Shown here in pieces: positions 14,856 through 22,548 of a stretch of DNA of 33,910 bases. Under the pieces are notes generated by a model, which saw only the letters and a program-made list of their open reading frames with translations, did not search any database and was not told the origin of the DNA. Every line of letters begins with the position of its first letter. Positions within the stretch are counted from its first letter, which is position 1. The stretch covers positions 1 to 33,910 of the forward strand of contig JAPOYE010000019.1 of assembly GCA_026706695.1 (NCBI GenBank), written 5' to 3'. Both the position numbers and the translations under genes were made by a program. Source of the DNA: Candidatus Dadabacteria bacterium. GTDB lineage: Bacteria; Desulfobacterota_D; UBA1144; Nemesobacterales; Nemesobacteraceae.

Positions 14856-16367
14856 CTAATTTTTTGGCACTCTTGGAAACTTGATAGCGTTTTCCATTGA
14901 GAAAAGCTCTTCGTCACTTAAGAAATCAAAATGTGATTTTCTTTTTTTCGCAGACAATCTGCCGTTGTTCTCAAGACAAATCCGGATAAACAAATCTATC
15001 AGGCGGTCAGGCATATCGATAACATCCTGAATAGCCTTTTTAGTGCTGTCGTAGTTCGCAAGGAAGCTCAACTCCTCTACAAGTTCGCTCTCAACGGTTT
15101 GAACGACAAAATCATACAAGGCTTCCGCTTGTACCGTCATATCAATGTAACGATACCAGTGCGCAGTATCGTTGTGGACGGTCATCTGGGCAAGCTCATC
15201 CAAGCTGTATTCCACAAATTGGTTCAAGGGAAGTGAAAATGCCTCTAAAGAATCATTGTAGCCTTCTGGATTGTTAAGCATCACCGCAGATACGGGAAAC
15301 ATCAGACCTTCCGGAACCATTCCTCGAATGGAAAAAATATTGTGGATCAGAAATCGGTGGATTCGGCCGTTACCATCTTCAAACGGATGAATAAAAACAA
15401 ACCCATAGGCTACTACAGCAGCGTGAACAATAGCTGAGACACCACCGGTCATCATAAGCCTATGAGAAGTCAGGAGTCCCCGCATCAGGTCGGAAAGATC
15501 TTCCGGCTTGGGACATACATAGTGAATTAACTCTTTCTGATAGGAAATCGTCTGACCTACATAATTTTGAACCGTTCGATAATCTTCGTTAATGAAACGT
15601 GGATCGACAATTCGATTCTGCAGGGCAATTAACAACTCCTTGTCGCAGAAATTCTGCCGTCGCGCCATCTCCAAGGACGCTATGAATTTCTCGGTCCGTG
15701 ACGCGTCGGGTTTAATGTTTTCTATTTCAAAAGAAGATTTGGTTTCTTTACTGTAGAGATAACTTAATGCTCTCCTAAGTAATTGCGGAGGATACGATTC
15801 GACTATCTTTTCGCACCTGTCTCGAAAATCAACTTGGTCCATTTCTCCAAGCTTCTCCGTTTTCCTGACAAGAGGACAAAATTCCCTTGGTCCAAGCAAA
15901 TTATTGACAACACGGTGTCTTTGAGATTTTTCACCCCGAGGAAGAGTGTAATAGATGTCCGGTTCAAGGGCTTCCAAATAATTCCCCTTGGACAAATCGT
16001 CAATGGGGAGCCTGCGACCAGTTAAAAACTCGTAAAAAAACCAGATGCGGCGAGCATACTTTCCCGTTGGCTTGGATTTGATGTAATCAACAAGCTCAGT
16101 TTCTGCGGCAGCATCGAAAATAACCTTTAAACAGCTCAGGCTTACGCCATCATATTTCAAGGCAAACTCCAGGTGGTCTCCGACTCCTTGACCGGGCCAG
16201 TATGGAGGAGGAAAAATATCCTCAATGCGATCACCTTGTACTTTCTGCTGCCGACCACCGGTTTCTACAACAAAAGAGCTGTGCCGGTTGGGCATTGCAG
16301 TCAACCCGAATTTGCTCAGCAGCCATGCGTAGCCTGCGGGCCGTATTTTCGAAAGGTTTATTTCCAT
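14856..16367 (-). CDS. Fic-family AMP-transferase with inhibitory motif
   Basis: Fic proteins transfer AMP or another phosphate-containing group from a nucleotide to a target protein. The active-site loop HPFEDGNGRIHR is complete (about 327-338 of 503 aa). Upstream, SFEIEN (about 212-217) fits the [S/T]xxxE[G/N] inhibitory motif of class II Fic proteins, in which the Glu blocks productive ATP binding until displaced. So this is an intact, self-restrained enzyme. The C-terminal region (about 380-503) is helical, possibly a target-binding or winged-helix part. The start is set at the ATG 16365-16367 (MEINLSKI); the frame is open for 20 more codons to a TTG, but that part is low-complexity. The gene is AT-rich relative to its left neighbours and divergent from the unknown gene at 16738. 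Confidence 0.9.
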   Translation of the reverse strand: MEINLSKIRPAGYAWLLSKFGLTAMPNRHSSFVVETGGRQQKVQGDRIEDIFPPPYWPGQGVGDHLEFALKYDGVSLSCLKVIFDAAAETELVDYIKSKPTGKYARRIWFFYEFLTGRRLPIDDLSKGNYLEALEPDIYYTLPRGEKSQRHRVVNNLLGPREFCPLVRKTEKLGEMDQVDFRDRCEKIVESYPPQLLRRALSYLYSKETKSSFEIENIKPDASRTEKFIASLEMARRQNFCDKELLIALQNRIVDPRFINEDYRTVQNYVGQTISYQKELIHYVCPKPEDLSDLMRGLLTSHRLMMTGGVSAIVHAAVVAYGFVFIHPFEDGNGRIHRFLIHNIFSIRGMVPEGLMFPVSAVMLNNPEGYNDSLEAFSLPLNQFVEYSLDELAQMTVHNDTAHWYRYIDMTVQAEALYDFVVQTVESELVEELSFLANYDSTKKAIQDVIDMPDRLIDLFIRICLENNGRLSAKKRKSHFDFLSDEELFSMENAIKFPRVPKN

Positions 16368-16538
16368 GGACTTATCCAATAAAATTGTTATGTTCCTATT
16401 AATATAATTAAAAATTGGCTTTTGCAAAATAAATAATTAGAAATTTGCCTATTCTTCAAAAAATCATTAAAAATTCAGAAATACCGATAAATCTTTTAAT
16501 TTTCTCAATATTTCTAAAAAAATGATTATAAAACTGAA

Positions 16539-16598: not shown

Positions 16599-16623
16599 AA
16601 AAAAGTGGAATTATAAAGATTAC

Positions 16624-16651
16624 TTGACAAGCTAAACTCCTTGACTATTTA
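16624..16651 (+). promoter_or_regulatory. Putative sigma70 promoter for the 187-aa gene
   Basis: TTGACA at 16624-16629 and TATTTA at 16646-16651 are separated by 16 bases. The site points at the gene starting at 16738 and lies 26 bases right of the tandem repeats, so a repressor bound to them could act on it. Confidence 0.45.
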
Positions 16652-16737
16652 GGCGGGCGTGCAATAAACTCATGTAGCAACTGGAGACAGCAGGGTTATT
16701 AGAGAGTGCGAAAGATCGTAATTCTTAGCCTGCCGGG

Positions 16738-17301
16738 ATGGGAAAACGAGTGTGGGCAATAAAAATTAAGGTAACTATTTTTGGTATAACATTTCCCGTT
16801 CCCGTTAAAGTTGAAGAATTTTCTACGGAACTAAGTTACAGTTGTAGCTGGGGAATCCGTAAACAAGAGTTTTACGATCCAGTATCCGTTCCCCACCCCT
16901 GGAGATCTCCGCGCTTCAAGTATTTCTTGGCAAAAGAATCTAAACCTAGGCCATTGCGTTCTGATTTTGAAGAATTTGAAAAGTGGTTTTCAGATTCAAT
17001 AACCAGAGGGCAACATTTTGTTATCAATGTTGATGATAAAGACTATGTTGATACAAGATGTGGCTTGTTTCTTCTGTCAGAAGATTCTTACGCCTTTATG
17101 CGTGTACCCCGTGGCACTCTTCCTACCCTTTTAGACATATTTAACGAAATACTCGGCACAAACTGGGAAAACCACTATGAAAGAAGAAAAACGCTTGAAG
17201 ATATGTATTGGGAAAGCTACTATGAGGAAAAGCAATGGGAAGAAGCACTGGCGAACATTGATCCGAATTGGAAAAATGACGACGATTGGGGGCCACTATA
17301 A
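16738..17301 (+). CDS. Hypothetical protein, 187 aa
   Basis: Not recognised. The protein is soluble, rich in aromatic residues and Trp, and has a very acidic C terminus (EEKQWEEALANIDPNWKNDDDW). The N-terminal part is likely beta-stranded (VWAIKIKVTIFGITFPVPVKVEEF). No catalytic motif is evident. It sits between fic (divergent) and the nuclease-TPR gene (convergent, 78 bases away) in an AT-rich block, so it may belong to the same accessory set, for instance as an immunity, partner or target protein. That is inference from position only. Confidence 0.6.
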   Translation: MGKRVWAIKIKVTIFGITFPVPVKVEEFSTELSYSCSWGIRKQEFYDPVSVPHPWRSPRFKYFLAKESKPRPLRSDFEEFEKWFSDSITRGQHFVINVDDKDYVDTRCGLFLLSEDSYAFMRVPRGTLPTLLDIFNEILGTNWENHYERRKTLEDMYWESYYEEKQWEEALANIDPNWKNDDDWGPL

Positions 17302-17379
17302 TGAGTGACAACCCAGAATATCTTCACTGTCTCATATAACTTGCTCTCTACAGTAATCTTTATAATTCCAATTGTTTTA

Positions 17380-19149
17380 TTACCGCTGGTTTGGAATGAT
17401 AGGATCATCACCGTCCTGCAGGACACACCTATCAGGATCGTGCTTGCCAATTTCCCAACCTTCACGAATAACCAGTTCTTTTTTGGCGATCATAAGTTCT
17501 GGAAAAAGTGTAGGTTCTTCATCTGCATTCATTTGTGCCGGGGCCAGATAAAAAGCACCAGCCTTTTTGTAAGCTATTAGAAAATTGTCCAAATTTTTTG
17601 AGTTGGTAGGGGTTATATGACGTATCCGAGACACAAACATAAAGGTTTTGTTTTTATGTTTATTTAGGTAGCGAAGACTTGGACCTACGGAAACTGCGTA
17701 CCCAGCAGGATTCTGCTTGGATAATCCAGTTACGACCGCCAATCTGAGCTCTTCGTTTTTATCTTCATTCCCCCATCGCTTTTTCCATAAACGAAAAATT
17801 GCTTGTCCTGCCTCTCCATCTTCAAATATAAAGGCGAGTATTGGTGGTAATTCAGCATAACAGTAAAACAGCATTCCTTGCCACTTTGCTTGATCCCATA
17901 AAAGGTCGTTTATGGGTGATATAACTTTGTAATCCGTATGTTTTAACTCTGCCTTGTCAATCAGATCCGAAGGAAGTGGATCGGTGGCAAACTTGGGTTC
18001 CGTCGTCTCGTTGTTACCGACGGATTTGGTAATTCTCCAAGGTTCGCTCCGAAGTACTGTGTAGATTCGGTCATCAGTTTCCAGCCAGTCAACCAAGCGT
18101 ACTTTAGGCTTTTCACCAAAAAGATTAGTGTTTAGCATAAAAGCATCCCCAAGAGCCAATGCGCGGGAAAAACCGCGTTCTTGACCAGCGACTTCTTCAA
18201 GCCATACATCAATATCTTTTATCATCAGCATACGACACATTATTTCTATTAGGCTATTCCGAAGCCATTCCATGTAGCTATGCTGTTCAGCGGCAGTTGT
18301 AAATGTTAACTCTGCCGGATGTACAATTTCAGCGCGAGCACCATCACTATCCGCAAAGCGAAGTTCTGGTAATCCTCTCATCTGTTGAGATGCTTTGACA
18401 GTAATTGTCATACGCTCACAGTGGGGCATTGCATGTTCGTAGCTCGTGGCCAAAAAGGCTTCCAAAACACCAAGAAGGGATTCGGTCAGACCAAAAGAAA
18501 CAGTATTGTTTGGCGTTTCGATAACAATTTCTGACCCAAGTATAGTTGATTTGAAAAGGCTAGTTTCTCCATCTATTAAAATTGGCTGACATGAAATATC
18601 ATCAGCTGCTGGCTGGTCTTGCCATTTCTCAAAAAGTTTTTGATCAGCATCTGGGTCTCCACTGACGAATATATTTCCTTCATCACGCAGGACCTGTTCG
18701 TGTCCAAGAACAAACAGCAATGTTGTCCAGGCGCAAGTTAGTCCGAGGCGTTCCAAACCATCAGGTAGACGTGCTACGACACCTGAAAGTGCATTGAATG
18801 GGAGGTTCAGCATATGGATGCCAAGCAATAAATCCTGCATGTGTAGATGGTTGGAATACACATCTTGGTTATGTTTGGACAATTCTAGATTTGAAGCCAC
18901 ATAGTTTGCCATGGTCATTGCGTCCAAGACGTGAGGGATGCGTCCAAGTCGAATTTCGATACGAACAAGCTGGTTAAGAGTTATGAGCAACTGAGGGGTA
19001 ATATCTCCCTGTTTCTTGAATACGGTCCAATTTTGCTCGACTGCGGCCAAGGCTTTGTTTCTGGAGGCCCACAAGAGACCAACGGATTCATAAGCATCGC
19101 TGCTCCTAATCAGCGTTGTTACCAACTCTACGCGACACTCCTCTTTCAT
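17380..19149 (-). CDS. C-terminal part of frameshifted nuclease-TPR protein
   Basis: 589 codons read from an ATG that overlaps the stop of the preceding frame (ATGA). The same frame stays open upstream and encodes YYDAIRWFGRAEELL, which completes the TPR helix begun in the other frame, so this is most likely the rest of one protein of about 1,090 aa. The N-terminal third is alpha-helical and TPR-like (SSDAYESVGLLWASRNKALAA). The remainder is a mixed alpha/beta region that I cannot assign; it has no P-loop or obvious catalytic motif. There is no ribosome binding site before the ATG, which argues against separate initiation. Confidence 0.7.
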   Translation of the reverse strand: MKEECRVELVTTLIRSSDAYESVGLLWASRNKALAAVEQNWTVFKKQGDITPQLLITLNQLVRIEIRLGRIPHVLDAMTMANYVASNLELSKHNQDVYSNHLHMQDLLLGIHMLNLPFNALSGVVARLPDGLERLGLTCAWTTLLFVLGHEQVLRDEGNIFVSGDPDADQKLFEKWQDQPAADDISCQPILIDGETSLFKSTILGSEIVIETPNNTVSFGLTESLLGVLEAFLATSYEHAMPHCERMTITVKASQQMRGLPELRFADSDGARAEIVHPAELTFTTAAEQHSYMEWLRNSLIEIMCRMLMIKDIDVWLEEVAGQERGFSRALALGDAFMLNTNLFGEKPKVRLVDWLETDDRIYTVLRSEPWRITKSVGNNETTEPKFATDPLPSDLIDKAELKHTDYKVISPINDLLWDQAKWQGMLFYCYAELPPILAFIFEDGEAGQAIFRLWKKRWGNEDKNEELRLAVVTGLSKQNPAGYAVSVGPSLRYLNKHKNKTFMFVSRIRHITPTNSKNLDNFLIAYKKAGAFYLAPAQMNADEEPTLFPELMIAKKELVIREGWEIGKHDPDRCVLQDGDDPIIPNQR

Positions 19150-20630
19150 CAGAAGTTCTTCGGCTCGACCAAACCAGCGGATTGCATCATAATATTTTTT
19201 TGCGAGAACTTCTGTGTACCACGCTGTATATAGGCTTGGCCTGCCTCTCGGTCACTGTGTCGTTGTCGCATAATGTCCACTAATTCCTCGTAGAGCGTGT
19301 CGAAAGCAGAACTGTCTATCTGCTCGCCAAGTTTGGCAATAGTTTTAAACAGTGGTTCTATAGAATAAGCACCTAAGGATTTGGATTTTTCTACAGCATG
19401 GCTCAGTTCAGACCAACAAGATTCTAGTTGATCGAGTTTTTTGCTTCTTATAGCTTCTGCGATCTTTATTAGTATCAGACCAGTGTGTGCTTGCAGGGCA
19501 TTGTTCGGTCGTTTGGAATCAGCTTCTATAACCTTCAGCATTGCTGTTAGGCGCTTCTGACGAACTTTGACCTTACCATCCTTAGCGCTGATCAATCCTC
19601 TGAGAACCGAACCTATCAGAAGTTGCCACAGGTTCAAAAGCAATTGGACTTCACAGGCTTCGGCTGAGCCTTTGACGTATTGTTCAACTTCTTTGTAGAA
19701 TTTGTCGAAAGCTGTGTAATCTTCATACCACCACCAAGCTGTCCAAGCACGATTATAGGCGATGCGTAATCGCTGCGGTTTATAGTTCAAGTCTTGTGCA
19801 AGCCGATCCGTCTGCGCAAAGCGGCTTTCCACTTCATTGCGATTTCGCTCAAGACCTCTGGCCAATATTGCGCTACGAAGGCAATCTTCAACCAGTTGAT
19901 AACGTGCGCCTTGATAGTAAGATGGGTCGGCTATCCGTTCATCCAGCTCTTCAAGTTCTTCTAGCCGTGCTGTGTCACGAGGGCCTGGGTTTTTTACACT
20001 TTCTTTCTGGCCGCTTTCGATTCCCAAGGTGCTAATGGCAAGATCCAAATGACCGGATTCGTAGACCTTCTCCACGATCCAGGCACGGTCAATAATATGC
20101 ACTGGAATTCCCGTATCATTAGAAAGTGTATCTTCTAGGGTTGCACGATCTTTATCTTTTACGAATTGGTTTGTGAAGAAATAGATACGTTTGTAATTCC
20201 GACCGGTAGACAATATCTTGTCAACATCAGTCTTGACTTTCTGCCTCCATTTTTTCTTGGCACTGAAGGCAAAGCCCCATAGTTCTGTTCCGGCCGATGG
20301 CGAACCAATCCATTGTCGTTCCGTGATCTCTCGGGCGACCGGGTATGTCTCAGTATCGACCTTGCTGTCCCCGCCACCAGTTGGACCAGTTTGAACACGA
20401 AGATTAGGACAGATTTCCTTTTCCGCAAGTTTTCGGCAGAAATTCTCAAACTCGTATTCCTCTTTGCGGCTGGTGAGCGTATCAAGGTGGTATTCAAACA
20501 CTGCTTTGGGGAGTTGGAAGACATCATCAACTAATGTGTCCGAGAAGAGTTCTGGATGCAGGGTTCGCATTAACTCTTTGGGACTAGGTACATCTTGTTG
20601 AAATAAAATCTGATCTTCTGTTTTATTCAT
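19149..20630 (-). CDS. N-terminal part of frameshifted nuclease-TPR protein (Mrr-like)
   Basis: An N-terminal restriction-endonuclease-like domain followed by helical repeats. In residues 60-140 the order E (FENFCRKLAEKE), D (GPTGGGDSKVD) and SAK (FAFSAKKKWRQKV) fits a PD-(D/E)xK or Mrr-type active site. YKRIYFFTNQFVKDKD and VHIIDRAWIVEKVYE follow, as in Mrr-fold N-terminal modules of large defence-type proteins. The rest is helical, with a TPR start (AYIQRGTQKFSQ) just before the frame ends. A seven-A run precedes the break. The start is taken at the ATG 20628-20630; a TTG nine codons upstream is possible, and neither has a clear ribosome binding site. A defence role is inferred from architecture. 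Confidence 0.7.
   Translation of the reverse strand: MNKTEDQILFQQDVPSPKELMRTLHPELFSDTLVDDVFQLPKAVFEYHLDTLTSRKEEYEFENFCRKLAEKEICPNLRVQTGPTGGGDSKVDTETYPVAREITERQWIGSPSAGTELWGFAFSAKKKWRQKVKTDVDKILSTGRNYKRIYFFTNQFVKDKDRATLEDTLSNDTGIPVHIIDRAWIVEKVYESGHLDLAISTLGIESGQKESVKNPGPRDTARLEELEELDERIADPSYYQGARYQLVEDCLRSAILARGLERNRNEVESRFAQTDRLAQDLNYKPQRLRIAYNRAWTAWWWYEDYTAFDKFYKEVEQYVKGSAEACEVQLLLNLWQLLIGSVLRGLISAKDGKVKVRQKRLTAMLKVIEADSKRPNNALQAHTGLILIKIAEAIRSKKLDQLESCWSELSHAVEKSKSLGAYSIEPLFKTIAKLGEQIDSSAFDTLYEELVDIMRQRHSDREAGQAYIQRGTQKFSQKNIMMQSAGLVEPKNF
19194..19202 (-). other. Frameshift site in seven-A run (slippery heptamer A AAA AAT)
   Basis: On the coding strand the frame reads CAA AAA AAT ATT. Slipping back one base after AAT continues as TAT TAT GAT GCA and joins both halves of the protein. 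The heptamer fits the X XXY YYZ pattern for programmed -1 frameshifting, but a lost A in a homopolymer (mutation or sequencing error) explains it equally well. Confidence 0.7.
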
Positions 20631-20745
20631 GGAATCAAGATCATTATCTAGAGGCAAAATTTCATAATGATCAAATTTTTTATTTTAACTGGGAAATCCC
20701 TCGACAGCAGAAGAAGACAGCAAAGAAGTGAGCCTCAAAAACGGG

Positions 20746-20775
20746 TTATCTTAAGTCTTTCTTTTGTGCTATAAT
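20746..20775 (+). promoter_or_regulatory. Putative promoter of the lipoprotein gene
   Basis: A perfect TATAAT at 20770-20775 is preceded at 18 bases by TTATCT (20746-20751), a weak -35. Transcription would start near 20782, at the base of the leader hairpin. Confidence 0.5.
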
Positions 20776-20782
20776 TTCAATC

Positions 20783-20931
20783 GCTAGCAGTTGGAACAGT
20801 CCGCTTGTCGGGCTTTCCGTTAAATAAAACACCCCTCTGGGGGAAATAGGCGGAGCGTCTGAAACTGTTCTGACTGCTAGCAGAGCCCGACGCCTACGTG
20901 TGTCGGAGATCAGAAAGTTCAGGAGGACGTT
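20783..20931 (+). ncRNA. Structured 5' leader of the lipoprotein gene
   Basis: GCTAGCAGTTGGAACAGT (20783-20800) pairs with ACTGTTCTGACTGCTAGC (20864-20881) at 15 of 18 positions, closing an 80-base region with inner dyads such as ACCCC/GGGGG. A second hairpin (CCGAC/GTCGG, near 20888-20907) sits between it and the AGGAGG before the ATG. The leader starts at the expected transcription start. It could be a regulatory RNA, but no known riboswitch motif is seen. Confidence 0.45.
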
Positions 20932-22113
20932 ATGAGGGTTGTTCCATCTTTTTTCGTAGTTTTGTTTTTTGTCGTTGGTTGCGGAGGTGGTGGTGGAAAT
21001 GAAACTTCAAGTGACCGACACCCCATAGCCCGAACTGCGGTGGGTCAATTTAAAGATGCCAACGTTGCAGGACTGAGCTATGTCTCAGGAGGGCAGAGTG
21101 GAGTTACCGATTCAGAGGGAAGGTTCACCTACGAAGTTGGAGAAAGTGTTGTGTTCTCGGTCGGAGGTGTAACATTAGGAGAAACCGGAGGAAAGTCGGT
21201 TGTTACCCCAGTAGATTTAGTTGAGCGAGGCAGTTCAAGTTCTGAGCCTGTGCTGAACACTGTGCGTTTTCTCATATCTCTGGATGAAGACAATGACCTT
21301 TCCAACGGCATAAACATCCCTGAAGAGGTTCGTGAGCTCGCACTACAATGGACTTTTATACAGATTCTTTCCGATAGCTTGGAGTTCGAGCAACAACTGG
21401 AGAGAATGAGATCCGATTTACAAGAAAGATTTAGTAGATATGAATCGTACGAAATCCCGGGAAACACGACCGCAAGGAACCATTTGGAAAGTACTCTTCG
21501 GTGTTCCTATTCGGGTGCATACACCGGAACATACAGGGGTACTGATCAAGGCAATTTCGGAGTTTTGATTGACGCACGTAGTGGAAGTGCGTCCGGTATT
21601 GCATACAGCACTCAATATGATAATTACATCACACTTACAGGCACAAGATCCATCAGCTATGATCAGAATGCCGCATTCGCAAGTGGAGATACAAATGAAG
21701 GAACAGAATTCAATGGCCAGTTTACTTCTGTGAACACGGTTCAAGGTCGATGGGGGCATCCACTTGACTCAAGTATCGGAGGCAGTTTCTCCGGCAGGAG
21801 AATCGGTGGTGATCAATATGCGGTATACCGTGGTACCGGAACTTGGCGAACTGATAGTTTTGACGAGTACGGAGTCTTCACTTTTGACATTAATGATTCG
21901 GGCAGGATAACAGGATTCGCATATAACATTGCTTATGATATATCTGGAAATCTTAATGGATCACTTTCGGGAACCAACATATCAGCTACTACAAACGATG
22001 GGACAAGGATTGCCGGAACGCTAGACCGAGAGACCGGTGTCCTAAGAGGCAGGTTCGATGATTCGGCAGGGTTTTCGGGCACGTTTGAAGGAAGCGGATG
22101 CCGACTCAACTAG
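20932..22113 (+). CDS. Predicted lipoprotein with beta-rich repeats
   Basis: 393 aa. The signal peptide ends in a lipobox (FFVVGCGGGGG, Cys about 17) followed by a Gly/Ser spacer. Residues of about 38-85 (VAGLSYVSGGQSGVTDSEG, then FTYEVGESVVFSVGGVTLG) match a short beta module common in secreted lipoproteins of marine bacteria. The C-terminal half is Gly/Ser/Thr-rich beta sequence with repeated GTY, GTW and SGSFSG-like blocks, probably a beta sandwich or barrel-like fold. Two Cys (SGC near the end and LRCSYSG) may form a disulfide. The function is unknown. AGGAGG lies six bases before the ATG. It stands alone, preceded by a structured leader. Confidence 0.82.
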   Translation: MRVVPSFFVVLFFVVGCGGGGGNETSSDRHPIARTAVGQFKDANVAGLSYVSGGQSGVTDSEGRFTYEVGESVVFSVGGVTLGETGGKSVVTPVDLVERGSSSSEPVLNTVRFLISLDEDNDLSNGINIPEEVRELALQWTFIQILSDSLEFEQQLERMRSDLQERFSRYESYEIPGNTTARNHLESTLRCSYSGAYTGTYRGTDQGNFGVLIDARSGSASGIAYSTQYDNYITLTGTRSISYDQNAAFASGDTNEGTEFNGQFTSVNTVQGRWGHPLDSSIGGSFSGRRIGGDQYAVYRGTGTWRTDSFDEYGVFTFDINDSGRITGFAYNIAYDISGNLNGSLSGTNISATTNDGTRIAGTLDRETGVLRGRFDDSAGFSGTFEGSGCRLN

Positions 22114-22548
22114 AAGCAACCGACAGGACGAACCAAAGCCACTCACACTTCGTGCAAGTACCGATCGTATTTCTATCATCTGAAGATGGCTGAAACGGCC
22201 GGACCACTGGATTCGTTTAGCATTTCTTGTACTGCTTTGCACTCCGTAAAAACCGGATACTAAAATTGAGCGGTGTAGGGGAATTCCGCCGTCGGTTACC
22301 GCTCTTGCGGATACTTTCGCCCGCTGACACCTCCCAGAAGCTACGAAATTAAAATGATTCGGGCAGGTTAATATCCTCAAGAGAACAAAATGTCTGATAA
22401 AAGAAGGTAGCCTTTGGAGGATTAAAAGATTCTGGGGCAAAAGGAAGTCTGATTCTATCAATTTTCCTACATAGTTTCCCGAAAAAGCTTCAGGTAGAAG
22501 CATTTTCATCTTCTTTTATTCTCCGCCTTTGGGAGTTATCGTATTCGC
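22114..22548. other. 435-bp intergenic region before aguB
   Basis: No gene supported. One dyad, GAGCGGT/ACCGCTC, is visible near 22269-22305 with GGAATTCC inside it. There is no T-rich terminator after the lipoprotein stop and no clear promoter. A 155-codon minus-strand frame here has no plausible composition and overlaps the lipoprotein gene end. Confidence 0.5.

Follow-up and report, generated by a model that had tools for sequence, protein, structure and literature searches.

The 33,910-nucleotide (nt) contig JAPOYE010000019.1 from the Candidatus Dadabacteria assembly GCA_026706695.1, the whole of which was analysed and is called the window below, carries on its minus strand a gene for a nuclease-TPR protein that is split into two open reading frames (ORFs) at a run of seven A residues (A7). 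The split probably arose when an accessory, defence-type gene recently lost one base, with the window holding an ordinary damaged copy. The loss would have occurred at or beside A7, most likely by replication slippage, and ribosomes would then mostly make a 493-amino acid (aa) nuclease-repeat fragment. The C-terminal part would be lost, or produced at a low level through occasional slippage or through restart at the TGATG where the two frames meet, with loss of function as the presumed outcome. The first-pass annotation of this DNA had proposed programmed -1 ribosomal frameshifting in a defence-type protein and had named loss by mutation as an alternative. It is the latter that we favour, since all 94 homologues that reach the junction are continuous there. 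The deciding criteria are this continuity of homologues, the rate at which members of the family are broken, and the rate of breaks at equal runs in the source assembly. This removes one defence-type protein from the candidates for programmed frameshifting, and the more interesting object becomes an unnamed family of proteins of about 1,090 aa that combine a Mrr-like nuclease, a helical-repeat solenoid and a C-terminal alpha/beta region.

Two reading frames of a single protein

Direct reading places the stop codon of the upstream frame, ORF1, at a TGA (19151-19149) and finds the downstream frame open from 19251 to 17380 (Table 1). A TTG at 20657 is an alternative start for ORF1 that would extend it to 502 aa. 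The zero-frame codons around the run are TCG CAA AAA AAT ATT ATG, and the start of ORF2 is an internal ATG that has one base in common with the ORF1 stop. Some particulars of the first-pass annotation change as a result: ORF1 counted from its ATG is three residues longer than the 490 given there, the altered tail that follows the run comprises about 15 residues (NIMMQSAGLVEPKNF) instead of 18, and the stop and start form a TGATG, not an ATGA, overlap. A7 is the sole homopolymer of seven or more in the 3.3-kb gene. Runs of this kind are as such ordinary in the window, since 18 A7/T7 matches are observed and 17.7 are expected by shuffling.

When a plasmid collection was searched by tblastn, each half separately matched the same records, and the frame of homology changes no more than about two codons away from the A-run. 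Because both halves match the same plasmid records and the change of frame falls at the run, a chance overlap of ORFs is ruled out. ORF1 and ORF2 each encode one half of a protein of about 1,085 aa, and the idea of one nuclease-repeat gene split at a seven-A run is thus borne out by direct reading and by the homology of both halves. In 11 plasmid homologues a single uninterrupted ORF spans the junction; their hosts are Nostoc, Agrobacterium (2), Pseudosulfitobacter (2), Burkholderia, Polymorphobacter, Cupriavidus, Sphingobium, Cohnella and Pantoea. Ten of these proteins are 1,017-1,112 aa long and the Pantoea copy is N-terminally shortened (837 aa). All 11 lack a comparable A-run at this point, and the window aligns with them there free of gaps when the change of frame is allowed for.

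The full homologue set comprises 97 loci drawn from plasmids, a scan of GTDB genomes and a scan of viral contigs. The junction is reached by 94 of them, including L056, which is broken about 45 codons past it, and every one of the 94 is continuous there in one frame; L010, L036 and L100 end short of the junction. Among the 93 homologues aligned in the junction segment, the longest A-run measures 2-4 in 76, 5 in 11, 6 in five and 7 in one. In the full-length proteins of the family, the start Met of ORF2 corresponds to a codon that is internal and not conserved. The nearest homologue, L016, comes from a Desulfuromonas metagenome-assembled genome (66% over the N-terminal half) and reads CAA AAA AAG CCC TAC at the junction. 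Its run equals that of the window in length and its frame is continuous, with one extra base between the run and a conserved TAY codon; the window is, at the junction, one base shorter than the L016 pattern.

Table 1. Coordinates of the split gene, its parts and the surrounding island
Feature	Position	Strand	Description
ORF1	19149..20630	-	Nuclease domain and first part of the repeat solenoid; ATG at 20630, 493 aa
N-terminal domain, residues 1-236	19923..20630	-	PD-(D/E)xK/Mrr-like by motif and fold
A7 run	19195..19201	-	Homology switches reading frame here; zero frame A_AAA_AAT
Two-frame overlap, 103 nt	19149..19251	-	The shift must fall inside
ORF2	17380..19149	-	Remaining solenoid and C-terminal alpha/beta region; 589 aa, different frame from ORF1
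5.9-kb island holding the split gene	16607..22495		Four congeners have the flanks joined

Origin of the break

Replication slippage predicts a break at a homopolymer, which fits the gene's only run of seven or more. Decay is also common in this family, as breaks or truncations elsewhere in the gene affect 11 of the 97 homologues (L010, L013, L024, L027, L036, L051, L056, L067, L068, L083 and L100), with L024 interrupted by about 5 kb. The lesion in the window looks young because all 33 residues at columns invariant in 80 other sequences are intact and no second lesion is present. Additionally, the C-terminal half has evolved faster on the window lineage, at 1.2-2.1 times the rate of L016, and the N-terminal half is clock-like. 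The faster rate relative to L016 is seen with four of six outgroups (p 0.0001-0.015) and not with the other two, and it is suggestive of a loss of constraint. Several considerations count against a recent deletion. The two halves have different sister groups, so that recombination could explain the faster C-terminal half, and intact sequence outside the run would be equally expected if the gene were still expressed. Moreover, the seven-A call is that of a draft consensus and leaves some minor probability that the assembly is in error.

Such an error, in which the gene is intact and one base at the homopolymer has been dropped from the draft consensus, is the main rival explanation. The source assembly is a draft of 116 contigs, the gene is otherwise intact, and one base at a homopolymer is a classic error. 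The closest parallel that we find is with the singleton and pseudogene classes that GeneTack validated by homologues, where breaks are likewise single-copy, located at a homopolymer, matched by continuous homologues and not conserved in position. In that study homologue-validated singletons are classed as indels or sequencing errors, and those validated by BLASTp are expected to be mostly sequencing errors (PMC3711429). Nothing essential sets the present case apart from these classes, except that break rates could be estimated here for both the family and the source assembly. Within 0.5 Mb of conserved coding sequence from the same assembly there are 190 A/T runs of seven or more, and none has such a break. 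A comparison with congener G007, made on non-overlapping ORFs, gave frameshift candidates in three of 493 genes, none of them at an A/T run of seven or more. The assembly therefore has no general tendency to frameshifts at homopolymers, and the breakage rate of the family outweighs the apparent error rate. We consequently regard an assembly error as rather unlikely and a real deletion as the better account.

Reversible switching or leaky expression would make the break real but not final, with phase variation or unselected slippage at A7 restoring some full-length protein. The break does fall at the only A7 of the gene, and the length of the run reaches the poly-A/T threshold of seven or more that has been used to screen for phase variation (PMC3711429). 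A reporter in E. coli that lacked one A in an oligoA stretch retained about 5% of its activity (PMC8254509). Such switching is nevertheless unlikely, as an off-state at this site is seen in no homologue. Transcriptional slippage needs a run of about nine or more A/T (PMC1088944), a length that the seven residues found here do not attain. There is a slim chance that the A-run is a real switch, acting through leaky -1 slippage or slipped-strand phase variation. Cells of this lineage would in that case contain mainly the free nuclease-repeat fragment, with full protein made only sometimes, and the equally long A7 of L016 (there A_AAA_AAG, with the full-length protein in the zero frame) would do the reverse, now and then giving a truncated form.

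The two halves might instead both be translated, with ORF2 restarted at the TGATG, and work as two subunits. This arrangement gains from the TGATG overlap itself, from a purine-rich GAAGAA that precedes the ATG by a few bases and from the retention of all invariant residues in both halves. We consider it very improbable, as the cut lies inside the solenoid, the alien residues after the run are added to ORF1, the ATG is a non-conserved internal codon and no homologue is split at the junction.

Programmed -1 ribosomal frameshifting would deliver the 493-aa and full-length proteins in a set ratio. The heptamer A_AAA_AAT (19201-19195, minus strand) is indeed in the correct phase for a -1 shift within the 103-nt frame overlap, and L016 has in the same place A_AAA_AAG, which is the strongest shift site in E. 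coli and stands far above the other A-rich or U-rich heptamers compared there (PMC5009743). In these respects the window resembles dnaX and insertion sequence (IS)-type frameshifting, which share an A-run heptamer in the right phase between overlapping frames. It differs from them in that its site is not conserved in homologues, ends in AAT and not the favoured AAG, and has neither a downstream structure nor a convincing upstream Shine-Dalgarno-like element. RNA downstream of A7 folds no better than shuffled sequences (z +0.44, +1.02, +0.31 and -0.23), and upstream only a weak AGAAG is present, which is accounted for by the conserved Q-K codons. In bacteria A_AAA_AAT is not known to be a strong site for shifting, and another in-frame heptamer of the gene, A_AAA_AAC at 19995, is not accompanied by a split.

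Conservation of the site is the criterion for programmed frameshifting (PMC3711429), and the split arrangement is found in none of the 94 homologues, the zero frame of L016 being already full length. An in-frame A_AAA_AAN occurs within 14 alignment columns of the junction in four of the 93 aligned homologues, at differing columns. This amounts to 4 in 2,574 codons near the junction and 49 in 97,903 elsewhere, which is marginally above expectation. Two of the four carriers are near relatives, and in all four the zero frame is already full length. The first-pass annotation had held that homologues all continuous and lacking a slippery run would speak against its proposal; the continuity is complete, and the lack of a run extends to nearly all homologues, with these four as the exceptions. 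Given the unbroken homologues, the missing stimulatory structure and a slippery run that is rare and not conserved in position, the programmed shift is not supported, and we assign it almost no probability.

Architecture and putative role of the intact protein

An AlphaFold2 model of L016 built with 69 sequences (mean predicted local distance difference test score, pLDDT, 89.8; predicted TM score 0.82) has three parts: an alpha/beta domain at the N-terminus, a long solenoid of helical repeats that spans about residues 214-672, and a further alpha/beta region at the C-terminus. The junction corresponds to residues 472-475, which form the loop preceding one of the solenoid helices, and the break therefore divides the solenoid. 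Foldseek searches with the solenoid returned TPR proteins including LGN, LapB and a STAND-TPR protein, and those with the full-length model were dominated by TPR solenoids. The N-terminal domain of the window was modelled separately (pLDDT 81), with strands and helices in the expected order. Its best Foldseek match is Avs4 (8dgf; E 3.2e-3, probability 1.00, query TM 0.42), followed by weak matches to FokI, BamHI and EcoT38I. GGGD (D88) and SxK (K125) are invariant in 43 sequences, and the modelled domain is as expected of a predicted PD-(D/E)xK/Mrr-like nuclease. The nuclease-TPR label given at first pass thus stands on the invariant GGGD...SAK motif, on Avs4 as the best match among solved structures and on the helical-repeat solenoid.

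Avs4 (AVAST type 4) joins a Mrr-like nuclease to a STAND ATPase and a TPR region. The family resembles it in that Avs4 is the best structural match of the N-terminal domain, and in the joining of a nuclease to a TPR-like solenoid. It differs in length (about 1,090 aa, as against 1,534 for 8dgf chain B), in having a C-terminal alpha/beta region and in lacking both a Walker A motif and a PADLOC match. Since none of 69 members contains Walker A (GxxxxGK[ST]), this is not an Avs protein, though by analogy it may work like one, with a nuclease effector joined to a TPR sensor. PADLOC returned no match for the split gene, and searches of Pfam, NCBIfam, PADLOC and PDB sequences with the halves gave nothing useful. 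Weak matches to ribosomal protein S7 were judged to be noise, and a profile match to the designed protein 8g4k was attributed to the helical repeats. We found no paper in the literature that describes this family, which occurs across many phyla and on plasmids, is absent from Pfam, NCBIfam and PADLOC, and sometimes lies beside or inside defence loci.

Examples of such loci are Hachiman in L011, a type I restriction-modification system in L061, and IetS with SAVED in L010. L016 is flanked on both sides by HNH restriction-type proteins. In two Caldilineaceae genomes an intact homologue (L018 9950-13315 and L020 9905-13276) is located within an HsdM-HsdS-gene-HsdR arrangement; in L018 the gene and the end of hsdS overlap, and ATG codons that could serve as starts are present at this point and beyond it. 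The earlier description of the family as defence-type is accepted, but narrow probes detected defence neighbours in only seven of the 97 loci, so that the anti-virus role is stated as no more than probable. No neighbour family recurs in more than five loci, so there appears to be no fixed partner and the gene is taken to stand alone.

The island and its surroundings

The split gene lies in a cleanly bounded island. In congeners G001, G007, G009 and G013 the counterparts of about 16606 and about 22496 are joined, with 8-36 other bases between them. Searches of other genomes from the same genus, family, order and class (60 with the C-terminal half and 57 with the N-terminal half) revealed no homologue, and the gene is by all appearances accessory and horizontally acquired. 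A second module within the island, 20724-22123, contains a hairpin and a 393-aa lipoprotein-like ORF with weak similarity to SslE/AcfD. Congener G006 has a stretch that matches this module at 96% identity, and contig C13 of the source assembly holds another, diverged copy, so the module moves separately from the split gene.

The hairpin (20783-20881) is an 18-bp inverted repeat around 63 nt with a TATAAT just upstream. The RNA of its plus strand forms a far more stable fold than shuffled sequences do (-48.5 kcal/mol, z -4.4), and copies occur at 99% in C13 and G006 and more weakly in G010 and G012. It matches no Rfam family at gathering score and is possibly a small mobile element or a structured leader RNA. 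The island also holds a 187-aa ORF (16738-17301, plus strand) that is convergent with the split gene and has no family match in the databases searched.

Beside the island, a minus-strand gene (14856-16427) encodes a Fic-domain protein that is a PADLOC candidate (PDC-S24, 588.9 bits). It is 88-91% conserved and found in the same place in congeners, and so belongs to the chromosomal backbone. Used as a probe, this protein had a match near one homologue of the split gene only. One or two internal TAG codons are reported for its orthologues in G001, G007 and G008. Near the contig end, a run of 12 G residues (283-294) lies inside a dispersed repeat that is 76-94% similar on contigs C21, C23, C28 and C38, where some copies contain 10-11 G or C residues in a row, and it could be an assembly-breaking repeat or a phase-variable tract.
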